Part shown: piece by piece, positions 16,603 through 35,950 of the stretch
Numbering within the stretch: the first letter of the stretch is position 1
How the letters are laid out: the number at the start of each line of letters is the position of its first letter
Origin: Ruminococcus sp.
GTDB lineage: Bacteria > Bacillota > Clostridia > Oscillospirales > Ruminococcaceae
NCBI GenBank assembly: GCA_015066665.1
Contig: SVNX01000004.1
Coordinates: forward strand, 1 to 64,000
Length of the DNA stretch: 64,000 nucleotides
Direction: 5' to 3'
Program-made: the position numbers and the translations under genes
The notes under the pieces: model-generated
Databases searched by the model: none
What the model was told of the DNA's origin: nothing
The model's input: the letters and a program-made list of their open reading frames with translations, nothing else

Positions 16603-16635
16603 AAAATGCTGGTGCGCTTTGCGCACCAGCATTTT
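16603..16635. terminator. Bidirectional intrinsic terminator between xth and the ACP gene
   Basis: aaaatgctggtgcgc-ttt-gcgcaccagcatttt. Confidence 0.95.
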
Positions 16636-16638
16636 CGT

Positions 16639-16881
16639 TTATTTTGCACGTTCTTCCAGAATATCCATCATCTCGCCGACATTCTTCATGCCGCTCACCT
16701 CACGGACGGTGAAACGCATCCTGAAGGCACGCTCTACGGCGCCGATCAGGTTGATATGCTCGAGGCTGTCCCAGTCCTCGATGTCATCGGCACAGGTCTC
16801 GTCGGTCAGTTCGATCTCATCATCATCGAATACGTCCTGGAACACTTCGGTCAGCTTATTTTTGATTTCTGCTCTGTTCAT
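16639..16881 (-). CDS. acyl carrier protein
   Basis: 80 aa with phosphopantetheine site DWDSLEHINLI. Confidence 0.9.
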   Translation of the reverse strand: MNRAEIKNKLTEVFQDVFDDDEIELTDETCADDIEDWDSLEHINLIGAVERAFRMRFTVREVSGMKNVGEMMDILEERAK

Positions 16882-16924
16882 GGTTGTTTTCTCCTTATAT
16901 AGTGATTTATCTTTTAAGGTTCTT

Positions 16925-17050
16925 TCTAAACTCCCCCACCCCAACCCCTCCCCAAGGGGGAGGGGCTTATAGTGGAGGCGGCTGCGCCGCCTCATACCCG
17001 CTGTTCGCCTTACGGCGGCTTTTGGACTGTGCCCCTTGTCCCTTTAAGCG
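16925..17050. repeat. GC-rich intergenic palindromic repeat element
   Basis: Nested palindromes cccctcccc-aaggggg-aggggc, gaggcggc-tgc-gccgcctc and cgcc-tta-cggcgg in a 172-bp intra-operon gap. Confidence 0.6.
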
Positions 17051-17053
17051 GCG

Positions 17054-18841
17054 TTATACATGCACTGCCACGGCAATGACTTCATTTTTTGGCTGATAAT
17101 CGGCAATACTCAGCTTCCATGCGGTATTCCCGTCCGCATCCTCGGAGATCTTCGTGAATCCGAATGTGCCGAACAGTTCTGCAACCATGCCGTTTTTCTT
17201 GGTCGGGTAATAATGCCCGATGATTTCTGTGATCCCCTGTCTGCGGCTCTCTGCGACAAGGGCATCGAGCATCGCAAATTCCATATCCCGCTTGAGCACA
17301 CGACAGCTCATCAGCCACAGCTCAACTTGCAGAGTACTTCCCTCTTTTTTGCCGATCACGACCGATACAATACCGTTGTCACCGAACTTGTCCTCGAGTC
17401 GACCATAGAGTCTGATGTGCGCGGGACTTGCGGCAACCGCTTCCATTTCGGCCTGTGTATAGCGCTTTGTGGTCACATTGAACTGGTTGCTCTTATTCGT
17501 CAGCTGCGTGATGCGAGGGAGTGTGACGGGGTCAAAATCCGCAATCACGGCCTTCATCTCCAGACTTTTCAGGAAATCCTTATAGTCGGTGAAGGCGGCC
17601 TGTGCGGCCTGACGCTTCGCATTTTCCTTATACATCTCGCTGCGCTTGGCATCATCTGCGGAAAGATTCGTCACCTCGAAATAGCCTGCACGGTCAAGCC
17701 GCAGGATGCATTCCTCGACCGAGTCAAACGGAATCACCGCCGTCTCCGGGAGCTGCGCCTGCACAATGGCACGCTCAGCGGGATTGTCATCGACAAAGAC
17801 AAAGCTCTCGGTCAGAAGCGTCAGCTCCTGTGCCATATCAGCGATATTCTGGGATTTCATATCCCAATTCGCCTTGATGCAGACAAAATCATCCGGTTTC
17901 AGAATACCCTCCGGATGCTCCAGACCAAGAATTGCATTCTCATGGTCATTCTTCGAGCACACGGTCAGCAGCACGCCAAGATCCTTGTGGTCTTTCAGGA
18001 AGCCTTGGAGCGAAGCATAGGCCTGACCGACAGAGGTCTCCTGTCCGATCTCAATACCAGCCTGTCCGTCATCGCCGATCACGCCGCCCCAGAGAGTATT
18101 ATCGAGGTCGAGTGCAAGGACTTTCTTATTTTTTCCCATCAGCGAGCAGATAATATTGCTCAGATTATAGGCAAAATCCGGAATGGCCGGTACGCAGAGT
18201 GCGTACTTGTAGAGATGCCAGTAGGACGGCTCGAGCCATTTGTCGAGACCGTAACAGGCAGAAAGATAGTTGATGTCGTGAATATAGAAATGCTTGTGCG
18301 CCCTTGCATAGTCATAGAACATGACATTGAGTCGTGTCAGATAGTCAATGCTGCCATGCAGGCTGCCGGCTTCCCGGTTGCCCATGAGGCGGGTGAGGGG
18401 CATTTCGAAATTATTCTGGATGATGGGGCAGCCATAACGCTCGGCAAGATGCTGCCACATGGCTTCAAAATGGTGGTATGTCTCGCAGAGCTTGTGCTCG
18501 ACAAGCTCGGCACTGTCGCCGATGTGCGGCATGGACTGCACATTGCGGGCGGATGTATGAATGAAGATCAGCTCGGGCTGGAATTCAGTGAGCGACGGCG
18601 GATCAAACATGGCATCGTTCCAGTACTGAGCATACTCGGATTGCCAGAAGGTCGGCACAATGCCGCGGTTTCTGAGAAACAGCTCGAGGATGCTGACAAT
18701 ATCATTTGTGGTAGAACCGCCCAGCACAGCAATGCGCAGCGGCACGCCGCCCGTCTCCTGCTCCTTCAGGGCACGCAGCAGTCTGCGGCGCTTCTGGAGA
18801 ATGGCGGCACCGTCAAAGGGATAGCAGAGCGCCTGTAACAT
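17054..18841 (-). CDS. FkbH-like HAD-IIIC family protein
   Basis: LGGSTTNDI N-terminal domain; HAD motif KVLALDLDNTLWGGVIGDDG; FVFVDDNPAERAIV; GNAT-like C-terminus. Confidence 0.92.
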   Translation of the reverse strand: MLQALCYPFDGAAILQKRRRLLRALKEQETGGVPLRIAVLGGSTTNDIVSILELFLRNRGIVPTFWQSEYAQYWNDAMFDPPSLTEFQPELIFIHTSARNVQSMPHIGDSAELVEHKLCETYHHFEAMWQHLAERYGCPIIQNNFEMPLTRLMGNREAGSLHGSIDYLTRLNVMFYDYARAHKHFYIHDINYLSACYGLDKWLEPSYWHLYKYALCVPAIPDFAYNLSNIICSLMGKNKKVLALDLDNTLWGGVIGDDGQAGIEIGQETSVGQAYASLQGFLKDHKDLGVLLTVCSKNDHENAILGLEHPEGILKPDDFVCIKANWDMKSQNIADMAQELTLLTESFVFVDDNPAERAIVQAQLPETAVIPFDSVEECILRLDRAGYFEVTNLSADDAKRSEMYKENAKRQAAQAAFTDYKDFLKSLEMKAVIADFDPVTLPRITQLTNKSNQFNVTTKRYTQAEMEAVAASPAHIRLYGRLEDKFGDNGIVSVVIGKKEGSTLQVELWLMSCRVLKRDMEFAMLDALVAESRRQGITEIIGHYYPTKKNGMVAELFGTFGFTKISEDADGNTAWKLSIADYQPKNEVIAVAVHV

Positions 18842-18854
18842 GGGGCACCTCCCG

Positions 18855-20246
18855 TTAATACATAATGGATTCAAGCTTGGACGCATTGCCGCCCATGGCA
18901 CTGTAGGTATTCATCGCAAAGAGCACATCGGTAACGCCCTTTTCCTGAATAAAGCCGATCATGCCCGGTTCGAAGTAACGCATATCGGCCACCCAGATCT
19001 CCTCAAAGGACGAAGTCAGGCAGGGCACGAGTGCATTGCCGTAGCTGTCCTTGATGATCATGAGCTTACGGCCGTTCTTGCAGTCAGTTGTAATGTGCGT
19101 GATGCGCTCATCACCGCCCATGAAAACAAGATACCAGCTTGAGGGGGCGAGATTGTCGAGATTCAGCATCAGGCTGGCCTGACGCTCTCTTGTCATATCG
19201 ATATCGTAATAGGTCGTTGTGTACTGATTCTGCGGGACATAGTAGATGAAGTCCTCGGGGTTATTCTTCAGCACGGCCTTCTGTGTGTAGCCATAGAGCG
19301 TGCCGACATAGCCTTCCTTCACGACGGTCTCATAGTCCGAGAGCGGTGCGAAAGGAACACCGGCTGTTTCCGCAAAGGCCTCGGCGGCATAATAGGCGCC
19401 GAGCGGTGCCCAGTGATGATCAGTGCGGGAATAGATCGCCTCGTCCTTATGTTCAAGGAGCTTGCTGTAGGCATCGACAGGGGTTACACCCTCAAAGAAG
19501 GTGTTGATATGATCGATGTGCTCCGGCTCACTGGCAGAGAGATCGGCGTATTTTTTTGGCAGATAGTACGAGCATGCAGTGGGGGCAACGAGGGAGTAGA
19601 TGTTCACATCATCGCCAAGAACTGCATGGTACTGGTTCAGAATGCCGGCATAGGCTTCGCCTTTTGCCTTGCCGCCGCCAAAGAGCATGATACCGCGATC
19701 CTTCACGATGAGGATGTTATTGGCAATCTCGCCGTTGATGTCCTCCTCGGGCGGCTCGGTCGTGGGCGGCTCGGTAGTCGGCGGTTCGGTCGTGGTCTCC
19801 CCTGTTGCGTCCTGTGTGGGCGGCTGGGTCGGGGGGACGGTGGTGGGCGGTTCGGTGGGTTCCGGTTCCTCAAGTGTGGGAATGTCACCGACAAGCTCGA
19901 CACCGTCATCATAGGCAATGCCAAGATTGCCCCGGAAATCGGAGATCACACCTTTGAACGTGCTGCGCATGGGCACGGTGTCATTGAAGAAGGCGGAGAA
20001 CTCGGATGTGAAGGTGCCTTCGAGATAGGATGCAATGCTGAACTTCGGCATCTTTGCAAGGTCACGATTCTCCTCGGATGAATGCGTCGGCCGCTTGCCG
20101 AACCACATAAAGCAGGTGGCGGCGGCAAAGACGAGGGACAGACCGATGACATTCACCTTCATCAGATTCTTTTCCTGCAGCGCACGCAGCTGCTGTTCTT
20201 TTTCATTCAAAGCAGGCTTTTCCTGCTTGGCTTTTTTCTGACTCAT
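18855..20246 (-). CDS. DHHW/AlgJ-like SGNH-type extracytoplasmic protein with T/P/E linker
   Basis: N-terminal TM; RTDHHWAPLGAYYAAEAF; IIKDSYGNALVPCL; low-complexity PTEPPTTVPPTQPPT...TTEPPTTEPPTTEPP. Confidence 0.88.
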   Translation of the reverse strand: MSQKKAKQEKPALNEKEQQLRALQEKNLMKVNVIGLSLVFAAATCFMWFGKRPTHSSEENRDLAKMPKFSIASYLEGTFTSEFSAFFNDTVPMRSTFKGVISDFRGNLGIAYDDGVELVGDIPTLEEPEPTEPPTTVPPTQPPTQDATGETTTEPPTTEPPTTEPPEEDINGEIANNILIVKDRGIMLFGGGKAKGEAYAGILNQYHAVLGDDVNIYSLVAPTACSYYLPKKYADLSASEPEHIDHINTFFEGVTPVDAYSKLLEHKDEAIYSRTDHHWAPLGAYYAAEAFAETAGVPFAPLSDYETVVKEGYVGTLYGYTQKAVLKNNPEDFIYYVPQNQYTTTYYDIDMTRERQASLMLNLDNLAPSSWYLVFMGGDERITHITTDCKNGRKLMIIKDSYGNALVPCLTSSFEEIWVADMRYFEPGMIGFIQEKGVTDVLFAMNTYSAMGGNASKLESIMY

Positions 20247-20258
20247 GGTTCACCTCCG

Positions 20259-21665
20259 TCAGAAACGATAATAGAGGAATGCATTGGTTGTGGCATCGAC
20301 CAGAAGAATGCTGCTGAGGATCAGAAGTCCTGCACAGGCCACGGTTCCGCAGAGGGACAGTGCCACCCTTGCACCGCTGGAACGATCTGCCAGCTTCCGG
20401 CACTGATCAAGCAGCGGGAAGGTGAAGAGCACTGCGGCAGCAATCAGGAAGATATTGTTGCACGCAGACATGCCTTCCACAAAGCTGTAGAAGCCGTTCT
20501 TGTTGAAGGGTGTGAGATTCACAAGGAAGGTCAGCAGCTCGCCGCCGTCCTCGAAATAGAAGATGCCAAAGCCAATGATGATGACGATCTTGTTGTAGAT
20601 ATGACGGATCCAGAGCGGGATCTTTCGCATTTTCTTCTTGCCGATGCAGGTTTCAAGGACAATGAAGGCACCATAATACACGCCCCAGAGCACATAATTC
20701 CAGCTGGCACCGTGCCAGATGCCGGTGCAGAGCCACACAACCGCAAGGCTCAGATACTTGTTGCGGATGCCGAAAACCGGCAGGGGCAGCAGATAGTCAC
20801 GGAAGAAGCTGCCGAGGGAAATGTGCCATCTCTGCCAGAATTCGGTGATGTCCTTGCAGAGGAAGGGATGGCGGAAGTTTTCATCGAAGTGGAAGCCGAA
20901 CATCCGTCCAAGGCCGATGGCCATATCGGAATAACCCGAGAAATCGAAATAAATGTAGAGCGAATACATGATGACCGCATACCATGTGCCGGCTACGGTC
21001 TGATGGGACACGCCGCCCTCACCAAAGAAATCTTCGACAATGAGGAACAGGTTGTCAGCCAGAATGACCTTTTTCGACAAACCAATGATAAAACGGGAGA
21101 AGCCCTCACTCACATCACGAAGGGTCACGGTGCGGTTCTCAATTTCCTCGGCAATGGTGCTGTAGCGGACGATGGGGCCGGCAATCAGCTGCGGAAAGAG
21201 GGAGACATAGAGTGCAAAATGCAGAAGATTCTTCTGCGGCTCGACCTTTTCCCAGTAACAGTCGACTATGTATGACAGCACCTGGAAGGTATAGAAGCTG
21301 ATGCCCACAAGCTGGGCGATCTGCGGGACGGGCAGACTCGCCGAAAACAGGGCATTGATATTTTCCATAATAAAACCGCTGTATTTGAACACACCAAGCA
21401 TACCGAGATTGAACACAAGACCGGTGCCGAGAATGATCTTCGAGCCGATTCTATCCCTGTACTTCCCTATGCCAAGTCCGCATAAATAATTCACAACGGT
21501 ACTGAGCAGGAGAAAGACGATGCGCGTGGGTTCACCCCATGCATAAAACACCAGGGAAAAAATGACCAGAATGACATTCCGGATTTTGGTCTGCTTCACG
21601 GCTGCGTAGCTGGTCAAGCACAACGGCAGAAACAGATATAAAAATATAAGACTGGAGAAAATCAT
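20259..21665 (-). CDS. MBOAT family O-acyltransferase (AlgI/DltB-like)
   Basis: Polytopic; FWQRWHISLGSFFRDYLLPL and TGIWHGASWNYVLWGVYYG. Confidence 0.93.
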   Translation of the reverse strand: MIFSSLIFLYLFLPLCLTSYAAVKQTKIRNVILVIFSLVFYAWGEPTRIVFLLLSTVVNYLCGLGIGKYRDRIGSKIILGTGLVFNLGMLGVFKYSGFIMENINALFSASLPVPQIAQLVGISFYTFQVLSYIVDCYWEKVEPQKNLLHFALYVSLFPQLIAGPIVRYSTIAEEIENRTVTLRDVSEGFSRFIIGLSKKVILADNLFLIVEDFFGEGGVSHQTVAGTWYAVIMYSLYIYFDFSGYSDMAIGLGRMFGFHFDENFRHPFLCKDITEFWQRWHISLGSFFRDYLLPLPVFGIRNKYLSLAVVWLCTGIWHGASWNYVLWGVYYGAFIVLETCIGKKKMRKIPLWIRHIYNKIVIIIGFGIFYFEDGGELLTFLVNLTPFNKNGFYSFVEGMSACNNIFLIAAAVLFTFPLLDQCRKLADRSSGARVALSLCGTVACAGLLILSSILLVDATTNAFLYYRF

Positions 21666-21825: not shown

Positions 21826-21854
21826 ATTATACGGCAAATGAAACGGTTTTGCAA
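21826..21854 (-). promoter_or_regulatory. Promoter of MBOAT cassette
   Basis: Minus strand TTGCAA-17 nt-TATAAT. Confidence 0.7.
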
Positions 21855-34771: not shown

Positions 34772-35950
34772 TCAATTCACAAGATCCTCGAAGTTCTGTG
34801 CCGTATCGTCATTGACGGTATTGCGGTAGCTGCCCTCGGGGACAAGCTCGATGATCGAGCTGTTTTCATAGGCAAGCGGCACCTGTCTGGGACGGAACCA
34901 CTTGTTGATGATTTCAAGTGCGGCGGTCTTATGAATCGACCACATGGACTGGCCACCGGGGCCGGTGGCCTCTTCGCCGGGCACCATGAAGACATTGACA
35001 CGATCCATGCTGACGGTACCGGCAAGATCGGCGATCATGCTGATCTGTTCCATGCTCAGATCCGTTGCCATCAGCTGTCTGTCATAGATCTTCCGCATGG
35101 CACTCATGAGTTCAAGATTCCCCATATCGAGTGCTTTTTTCATCGCTGCGGCAAGAAAGAGACGCTGTGCCTTGACACGGCCGATGTCGCCTTCGTTATA
35201 GCCGCTGCGGAAACGCAGGAACCACTCGGACTGGGTGCCGTTCAGCACCTGCCTGCCCTCATAGAGGATCTTATCCGGCTCATAGACAATGGTACGGGGC
35301 AGATTGATCGGGATACCGCCGATGATGTCGACGATCTCCACAATGCTGTCGCAGTTGGTGATGACATAGGAATCGACAGGAATGCCGAAGCTCTCCTGTA
35401 CGGCATCGACCACACGCTGCACCTTGCTGACGCTCTTGTCGCCGCAGGCATAGATGCTGTTGAATTTATTCGTGCCTGAATTCGTGTAGTCGGGCATATA
35501 GCTGTCACGGGGGATCTGGAGGATATTCATGCTGGCGGTACGGATGTTGAACTGGATGAGATAGTTCACATCGTGCAGCGTGCCGCCGCCGTTTGTGAAT
35601 GTATCAAATCCGAGGAACAAAATGGTATACTGCCCTTCGATGGTCTGGTTGAGATCCAGTCCGTCATCGAATGTGACATCCTCCTCACTGCGCAGCTCCT
35701 CCTTGACCGCCTGGGACTCGACCTTGGAGATGGTGCCCTCCTGAATGATCATGGGCTGCCAGCGTTTGAAATAGGACGGGATGGAGACATGTTCGATGGT
35801 TTCCTCGGCACCGTTTGCCTCATGCAGCACCATGATGGGTGCATTGAGTACAAGCACGGCAGCGATCACCAGTGTGAGAACGATCGAACAGGCCTTCATA
35901 CTAATGTTTACGATTCTTTTTTTGGCTTTATCAGTTAATTTTTTGCTCAT
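34772..35950 (-). CDS. LytR-CpsA-Psr (LCP) family protein
   Basis: N-terminal TM; LNILQIPRDSYMPDY-like and WFLRFRSGYNEGDIGRVKAQRLFLAA. Confidence 0.92.
   Translation of the reverse strand: MSKKLTDKAKKRIVNISMKACSIVLTLVIAAVLVLNAPIMVLHEANGAEETIEHVSIPSYFKRWQPMIIQEGTISKVESQAVKEELRSEEDVTFDDGLDLNQTIEGQYTILFLGFDTFTNGGGTLHDVNYLIQFNIRTASMNILQIPRDSYMPDYTNSGTNKFNSIYACGDKSVSKVQRVVDAVQESFGIPVDSYVITNCDSIVEIVDIIGGIPINLPRTIVYEPDKILYEGRQVLNGTQSEWFLRFRSGYNEGDIGRVKAQRLFLAAAMKKALDMGNLELMSAMRKIYDRQLMATDLSMEQISMIADLAGTVSMDRVNVFMVPGEEATGPGGQSMWSIHKTAALEIINKWFRPRQVPLAYENSSIIELVPEGSYRNTVNDDTAQNFEDLVN

Follow-up and report, generated by a model that had tools for sequence, protein, structure and literature searches.

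A conserved MBOAT–DHHW–FkbH–ACP gene cassette of Ruminococcus sp. and its probable role as a carrier-protein-fed pathway of envelope-polymer O-acylation

In the D-alanine decoration (Dlt) pathway, an MBOAT acyltransferase with two catalytic histidines (DltB) works together with a dedicated carrier protein (DltC), the adenylation enzyme DltA, the microprotein DltX, which bears an acyl-Tyr motif, and an extracytoplasmic SGNH-type partner (DltD). The other MBOAT-SGNH pathways are described as using acyl-coenzyme A (acyl-CoA) and having no carrier protein (PMC12148441, the 2025 PatA/PatB paper). The systems PatA/PatB, PatA1/PatB1 and AlgI/AlgX combine a separate SGNH transferase with an MBOAT ending in the motif FXYXXF, and in PatA this tail is auto-acetylated and carries an acetyl-Tyr intermediate (PMC12148441). 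Analysis of a 64,000-nucleotide (nt) stretch of DNA from Ruminococcus sp. (contig SVNX01000004.1, positions 1 to 64,000; hereafter the window) revealed a set of four minus-strand genes (16639–21665) encoding, in order of transcription, an MBOAT, a DHHW/AlgX-like SGNH transferase (DHHW protein), an FkbH-like enzyme and an acyl carrier protein (ACP). This cassette probably constitutes a self-contained pathway for the O-acylation of an envelope polymer, in which a dedicated carrier protein, loaded with D-glyceryl by FkbH, serves as the acyl donor.

The MBOAT matches PF03062 (91 bits, 1e-25). Its closest solved structure is DltB, both by sequence (8jem/6bug) and by predicted fold (TM-score 0.6–0.7; predicted local distance difference test score of the model, 85). 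His281 and His318, the counterparts of DltB His289 and His336 in the alignment, are invariant in 22 aligned homologues. The protein reached 158 bits with the curated DltB model TIGR04091, below the cut-off of 375, and it was assigned to the PatA/AlgI type, not to the DltB/DltX type, because it ends in the FXYXXF shuttle motif (FLYYRF, residues 463-468; 20262..20279, minus strand), which contains Tyr465. The same F.Y..F tail is present in 60 of the 62 FkbH-linked MBOATs, the other two terminating in FLYLQW. Residues 464-468 have low confidence in the predicted model.

The DHHW protein matches PF14286 (151 bits, 9e-44) and is homologous to the E. siraeum protein 4nzk (5e-78) and to B. cereus PatB1 (PDB 5v8d; 3e-13). 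It contains the triad Asp276/His278/Ser401 and a DXRY motif (residues 421-424). Asp276, His278, Ser401, Asp421 and Arg423 are invariant in 18 aligned proteins, Tyr424 is retained in at least 90% of them, and the spacing of these residues equals that of Ser337/Asp357/Arg359 in B. cereus PatB1. The MBOAT-DHHW pair has the features of the PatA/PatB1/AlgI type, i.e. a PF03062 protein with active-site His and a fused FXYXXF motif, and an SGNH partner with the DHHW triad and DXRY. The cassette differs from this type in the replacement of the IPxGG loop of the MBOAT and in the presence of a carrier protein and its loading enzyme, both conserved members of the cassette. An MBOAT gene followed by a DHHW gene is also known in Clostridia from the Clostridioides Ccs cellulose locus (CcsH/CcsI); that pair, however, accompanies a glycan synthase and has been proposed to act in cellulose acetylation, and neither FkbH nor an ACP is described for it (PMC7710045).

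With the Dlt pathway the cassette shares a dedicated small carrier protein (80 amino acids, aa), an MBOAT with two His and an extracytoplasmic SGNH-type partner; DltB, too, lacks the IPxGG loop. The differences are (i) FkbH in place of DltA, (ii) an acyl-Tyr motif fused to the MBOAT, with no separate DltX microprotein bearing such a motif in the cassette, and (iii) a DHHW/AlgX-like partner in place of DltD. The genome is 77% complete, and absences from it are weak for this reason; within it, the best match to the DltA model TIGR01734, whose cut-off is 560 bits, reached 116 bits, in agreement with an earlier note on this DNA, made from the sequence alone, which had remarked on the lack of a DltA-like enzyme. 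The same note had called the pathway Dlt-like, which holds for the use of a carrier protein but not for the membrane part, which is of the PatA/AlgI type, fails the DltB cut-off and is accompanied by neither DltX nor DltD. Among 199 genomes of the same family, most of the DltA matches were adenylate-forming enzymes of other kinds that scored below the cut-off, and the overlap with the cassette was too small to support a mutual exclusion of the two.

FkbH exceeds the cut-off of TIGR01686 (278 bits versus 147) and also matches PF21211. Read from the conserved ATG (595 aa; the GTG start of the open reading frame list is not the conserved one), it consists of an SGNH-like N-terminal domain and a HAD-IIIC domain, as in B. 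fragilis BF1531 (PDB 3slr, 1e-46), followed by a C-terminal domain of the GNAT fold, and its predicted model resembles 3slr and GNAT folds. The HAD-IIIC motifs, with Asp245, Asp247, Lys329, Asp351 and Asp352, and Cys513 of the C domain are invariant in 20/20 aligned cassette homologues, so that the catalytic residues whose loss would have spoken against a loading function are retained. Cys295 of the HAD domain was also considered as the catalytic cysteine; since some of the cassette FkbHs have Asp, Asn or Ala at this position, Cys513 is preferred and may take part in loading. In reviewed and characterised FkbH domains the loaded unit is glycerate, drawn from 1,3-bisphosphoglycerate (PMC8949500, PMC7489565), and by analogy with this family the acyl group is probably glyceryl. 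As in polyketide, nonribosomal peptide and tetronate pathways, an FkbH protein of the HAD-IIIC type lies beside a standalone ACP; unlike them, the cassette has no polyketide or peptide synthase, and two acyltransferases working as a pair at the membrane take the place of a synthase as partner.

The ACP, which is single-copy in its genome and whose length was counted from the conserved ATG, did not reach the curated cut-offs of general ACP models, and no DltC model was among its NCBIfam matches. The closest solved ACP is GmACP3 of Geobacter metallireducens (PDB 2lml, 3e-18), which shares the WDSLxH context around the phosphopantetheine Ser. Within the DWDSLEH sequence of the cassette ACP, Trp37, Asp38, Ser39 and His42 are invariant in 22 homologues (WDSxxH). 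A WDSLxH/N motif around the phosphopantetheine Ser reportedly marks a GmACP3-like group of ACPs. Going by its title, the paper by Ramelot et al. 2011 (cited in PMC4847154) proposes that GmACP3 acts in lipopolysaccharide synthesis.

FkbH occurs in 78 of the 199 same-family genomes. These genomes provided a set of 20 loci with a high-scoring MBOAT beside FkbH (one more, L090, was found later); the order MBOAT-DHHW-FkbH-ACP is kept in 19, and the remaining locus is cut by a contig end. Among 80 named loci from Oscillospiraceae, Ruminococcus, Lachnospiraceae and other Clostridia, picked by alignment of FkbH, 35 contain all four gene types in order, some with extra DHHW matches. A class-level sample of 245 genomes revealed a linked MBOAT-FkbH pair in a second family, with scores of ~685 bits or more for linked MBOATs and 590 or less for the rest. 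Since the arrangement is conserved across many genomes, the set is not a chance neighbourhood. The genes flanking the cassette vary between genera, which indicates that it is a self-contained unit, and no conserved polymer-synthesis neighbour was found among these flanks. The feature that varies least among the loci, whether or not an MBOAT is present, is that FkbH and the ACP lie next to each other.

Genes for MBOAT, ACP and FkbH are also found together, in other orders, in Lachnospiraceae and Alphaproteobacteria, so that the expected co-occurrence extends, as equivalents of the cassette, to another phylum. On Sinorhizobium meliloti pSymB (L200:3408-8443), an MBOAT (tail FLYQGF), a protein of ~410 aa, an ACP and FkbH adjoin rkp capsule-export genes; the ~410-aa protein, annotated as a TonB-dependent receptor, is probably a misannotated extracytoplasmic partner. 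FkbH is matched by 40 Sinorhizobium records. A Rhodobacteraceae plasmid contains ACP-FkbH-MBOAT (tail FIYFNF)-hypothetical protein, and Tistrella mobilis has MBOAT (tail FIYAGF)-hypothetical protein together with an ACP and FkbH. The alphaproteobacterial partner proteins, which may be SGNH-like, gave no Pfam match. In genome G159 (L076:3042-18000), FkbH-ACP-MBOAT is part of a locus for pseudaminic acid and ABC export (PseB, PseC and PseG over cut-offs), a context suggesting that this set may acylate a nonulosonic-acid glycan. In other genera of the family (L060-L073, L077-L079, L093 and others), FkbH-ACP is followed by genes for a MaoC dehydratase, an SDR and a GNAT-like protein, and a gene for a penicillin-binding protein often lies close by; this arrangement may represent a further FkbH-ACP pathway, one whose acyl group is modified.

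A tree of 114 MBOATs showed that the linked MBOATs form a dedicated clade (68 members, support 100), comprising 55 FkbH-linked, 2 ACP-only-linked and 11 unlinked proteins. Eight of the unlinked members come from genomes with FkbH elsewhere, one from a 55%-complete genome and two from genus g114, in whose genomes FkbH was not found and no close ACP was present. Lower-scoring MBOATs near FkbH, from Lachnospiraceae and others, fall outside the clade. An MBOAT of the clade is found together with FkbH in 32 of 35 genomes, as against 43 of 164 (p 4e-13, a value that ignores relatedness).

The linked MBOATs also differ from the others in the segment between the catalytic His pair. Unlinked family MBOATs carry RDY-(V/L)YIP(L/M)GGN at this position (8/8 sister sequences), and of 41 MBOATs taken at successively lower scores, all from outside FkbH loci, 40 contain the IP(L/M)GG core, the single exception (genome G065) also lacking the first His. 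In contrast, none of the 57 high-scoring FkbH- or ACP-linked MBOATs has IP[LM]GG; they contain forms such as RDYLLYVPIFGKRRKY. The two g114 MBOATs, nested in the clade and encoded in genomes without FkbH and ACP, carry IP(L/M)GGN. Among the FkbH-associated MBOATs of a second group, which is distant and comes mostly from Lachnospiraceae, the GG loop was found in 3 of 26 proteins with an ACP nearby (L170 taken as non-GG) and in 10 of 14 without one, and three alphaproteobacterial FkbH-linked MBOATs likewise have no IP[LM]GG loop. The loop change tracks the presence of an ACP. Because the sequences are related, these counts are not independent trials, and the weight of the argument is carried by the separate lineages and the g114 case. 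In DltB, the aligned segment comprises residues 299–314 (FVFMRLVIVLMRNKVF), a DltC-contacting helix that includes the contacts Met302, Val305, Ile306, Met309 and Lys312. The simplest reading is that the loop may be a donor-docking site, differing between CoA-fed and carrier-fed MBOATs. The exceptional G065 MBOAT (L232:264-1790) keeps an IFGK-like loop and has FWERTACS in place of FWQRWHIS; its genome has no FkbH, a congener (G160) has the cassette, and the protein looks like a decaying remnant.

In the proposed pathway, FkbH would take the three-carbon acyl group of 1,3-bisphosphoglycerate in the cytoplasm, with dephosphorylation by the HAD domain, and its GNAT-fold domain would place D-glyceryl, via Cys513, on the phosphopantetheine of the ACP (Ser39). 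Glyceryl-ACP would then bind the MBOAT from its cytosolic side, docking at the altered loop (residues 291-305), and His318 would pass the glyceryl group through the tunnel to Tyr465 of the enzyme's own FLYYRF tail. Outside the cell, Ser401 of the DHHW protein would accept the group and transfer it to a polymer of the cell envelope, at one of its hydroxyl groups. The Tyr-to-Ser acyl relay is taken from the PatA/PatB and Dlt work (PMC12148441). The earlier proposal that an FkbH-charged ACP feeds the MBOAT/DHHW pair is supported by the intact FkbH motifs and the co-occurrence of the four genes. With regard to the acceptor, the genome encodes one PF00884 protein (634-aa frame), which could be a lipoteichoic acid synthase, and no PF04464 wall-teichoic enzyme was found in this incomplete assembly; lipoteichoic acid is therefore a possible acceptor, as a candidate only.

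Several points weigh against this pathway. We infer the acyl group, the acceptor and the docking of the ACP on the MBOAT, and FkbH, which was assigned by family, could load another acid, as some members may. Genus g109 contains MBOAT-DHHW-ACP without FkbH (L100:7272-10940, L101:6104-9721), the sole FkbH of each g109 genome being a distant BF1531-like type at another locus; this distant protein is a possible replacement loader. (A 508-aa gene upstream of the L101 MBOAT, DltA-like in size, proved to encode a PPIC-type isomerase.) Genome G104, which is 88% complete, has FkbH, and no ACP was found in it. The L194 MBOAT keeps a GG-type loop beside an ACP, at a locus with no non-GG MBOAT. Finally, the relatedness of the sequences means that the counts overstate independence.

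The alternative that survives best, although it is unlikely, retains the carrier-fed route and changes the acyl group to another short hydroxy acid (e.g. lactyl) or to glyceryl altered before transfer by enzymes whose genes lie elsewhere. FkbH relatives feed several end products, and the MaoC and SDR genes that accompany FkbH-ACP pairs elsewhere in the family could modify an ACP-bound acyl group; the MBOAT-DHHW cassettes, however, contain no modifying enzyme and have variable flanks, and the reviewed FkbH domains load glycerate. Still less probable is that the MBOAT and the DHHW protein form an ordinary acetyl-CoA-dependent O-acetyltransferase pair, with FkbH and the ACP sharing the transcript and serving another pathway. 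Such a function would be in line with B. cereus PatB1 and most MBOAT-SGNH pairs, which are O-acetyltransferases (PMC9487903, PMC12148441), and with the many family genomes that have MBOAT-DHHW pairs without FkbH or ACP. Yet it is these unlinked pairs that carry IP[LM]GG, which is never found in linked ones; IP[LM]GGN is present in the two clade members whose genomes are devoid of ACP and FkbH, the linked MBOATs have their own clade, and the cassette flanks share no other gene that FkbH-ACP could serve. Charging of the ACP by a different ligase (Dlt-like, for an amino or other acid), with FkbH as a phosphatase or editing factor, would suit the g109 set without adjoining FkbH but is very improbable in view of the lack of a DltA over cut-off in the 77%-complete genome, the constancy of FkbH-ACP adjacency and the other FkbH that the g109 genomes still hold.

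The features of the locus are listed in Table 1. All four genes lie in the order given by the earlier note and contain the motifs it quoted, and the gaps that it put at about 12 nt between the first three measure 12 nt (MBOAT/DHHW) and 13 nt (DHHW/FkbH). The bidirectional terminator that it placed past the ACP gene was also found; this is common to the cassette and to a converging gene of the Exo_endo_phos family. The promoter proposed upstream of the MBOAT gene stood in part: a good match to the consensus is present, but a promoter scan gave 8 sites versus 7.0 +/- 2.6 expected from shuffles. As there is no excess over shuffles, the match is plausible but is not evidence by itself.

Table 1. 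Features of the MBOAT–DHHW–FkbH–ACP locus (positions in the window).
Feature	Position	Strand	Basis or remark
Candidate sigma-70 promoter, TTGCAA-17-TATAAT	21826..21854	-	10/12 consensus match
MBOAT acyltransferase, 468 aa	20259..21665	-	PF03062; DltB-like by sequence and fold
MBOAT residues 291-305 (YLLPLPVFGIRNKYL), replacing IP[LM]GGN	20751..20795	-	Loop comparison
DHHW/AlgX-like SGNH transferase, 463 aa	18855..20246	-	PF14286; PDB 4nzk; B. cereus PatB1
FkbH-like ACP-loading enzyme, 595 aa	17054..18841	-	TIGR01686; 3slr; motifs invariant
Dispersed repeat between FkbH and ACP	16923..17001	-	Partial matches elsewhere in genome
Specialised acyl carrier protein, 80 aa, WDSLxH	16639..16881	-	2lml; Ser39 phosphopantetheine site
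Bidirectional intrinsic terminator	16603..16635	both	15-pair stem, 3-nt loop, T run on each side

The FkbH/ACP gap (172 nt) consists mostly of the repeat, which is partially matched at 44 other places in this genome. In relatives the ACP gene lies directly 3′ of FkbH, abutting or overlapping it (spacing -41 to +88 nt), and comparison of these sequences indicates that the repeat was inserted between the two genes in this lineage. The repeat is GC-rich, and four evenly spaced copies are present on contig C7 (G000:C7:10178-10674). The cassette is flanked upstream by a gene for a Phos_pyr_kin-family kinase and a divergent ABC-F gene, and downstream by the converging Exo_endo_phos-family gene; there is no polymer-making gene among these immediate flanks. 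A gene of the LytR-CpsA-Psr family, a family of wall-polymer ligases, is located at 34775-35950 in the window.

No description of this cassette or of an FkbH-ACP-fed MBOAT was found in the open-licence full-text literature. One paper naming both FkbH and MBOAT deals with a cyanobacterial peptide and proposes the two for separate steps. The cassette seems to be a previously undescribed relative of the D-alanine decoration pathway. On balance, we lean towards a wider interpretation, in which glycolysis-fed polymer glycerylation via an FkbH-charged ACP would represent a third MBOAT-SGNH donor class, widespread in gut Clostridia and found in Alphaproteobacteria as well; the cytosolic IP[LM]GG loop would mark CoA-fed MBOATs and its loss would mark carrier-fed ones. 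If this is true, these bacteria would possess a new surface ester, probably glyceryl, and the decoration of the envelope in common gut bacteria would be coupled directly to a glycolytic intermediate. The most useful outcome is the testable donor code itself, as the loop difference would provide a sequence rule for whether a bacterial MBOAT draws on CoA or on a carrier protein as its donor.

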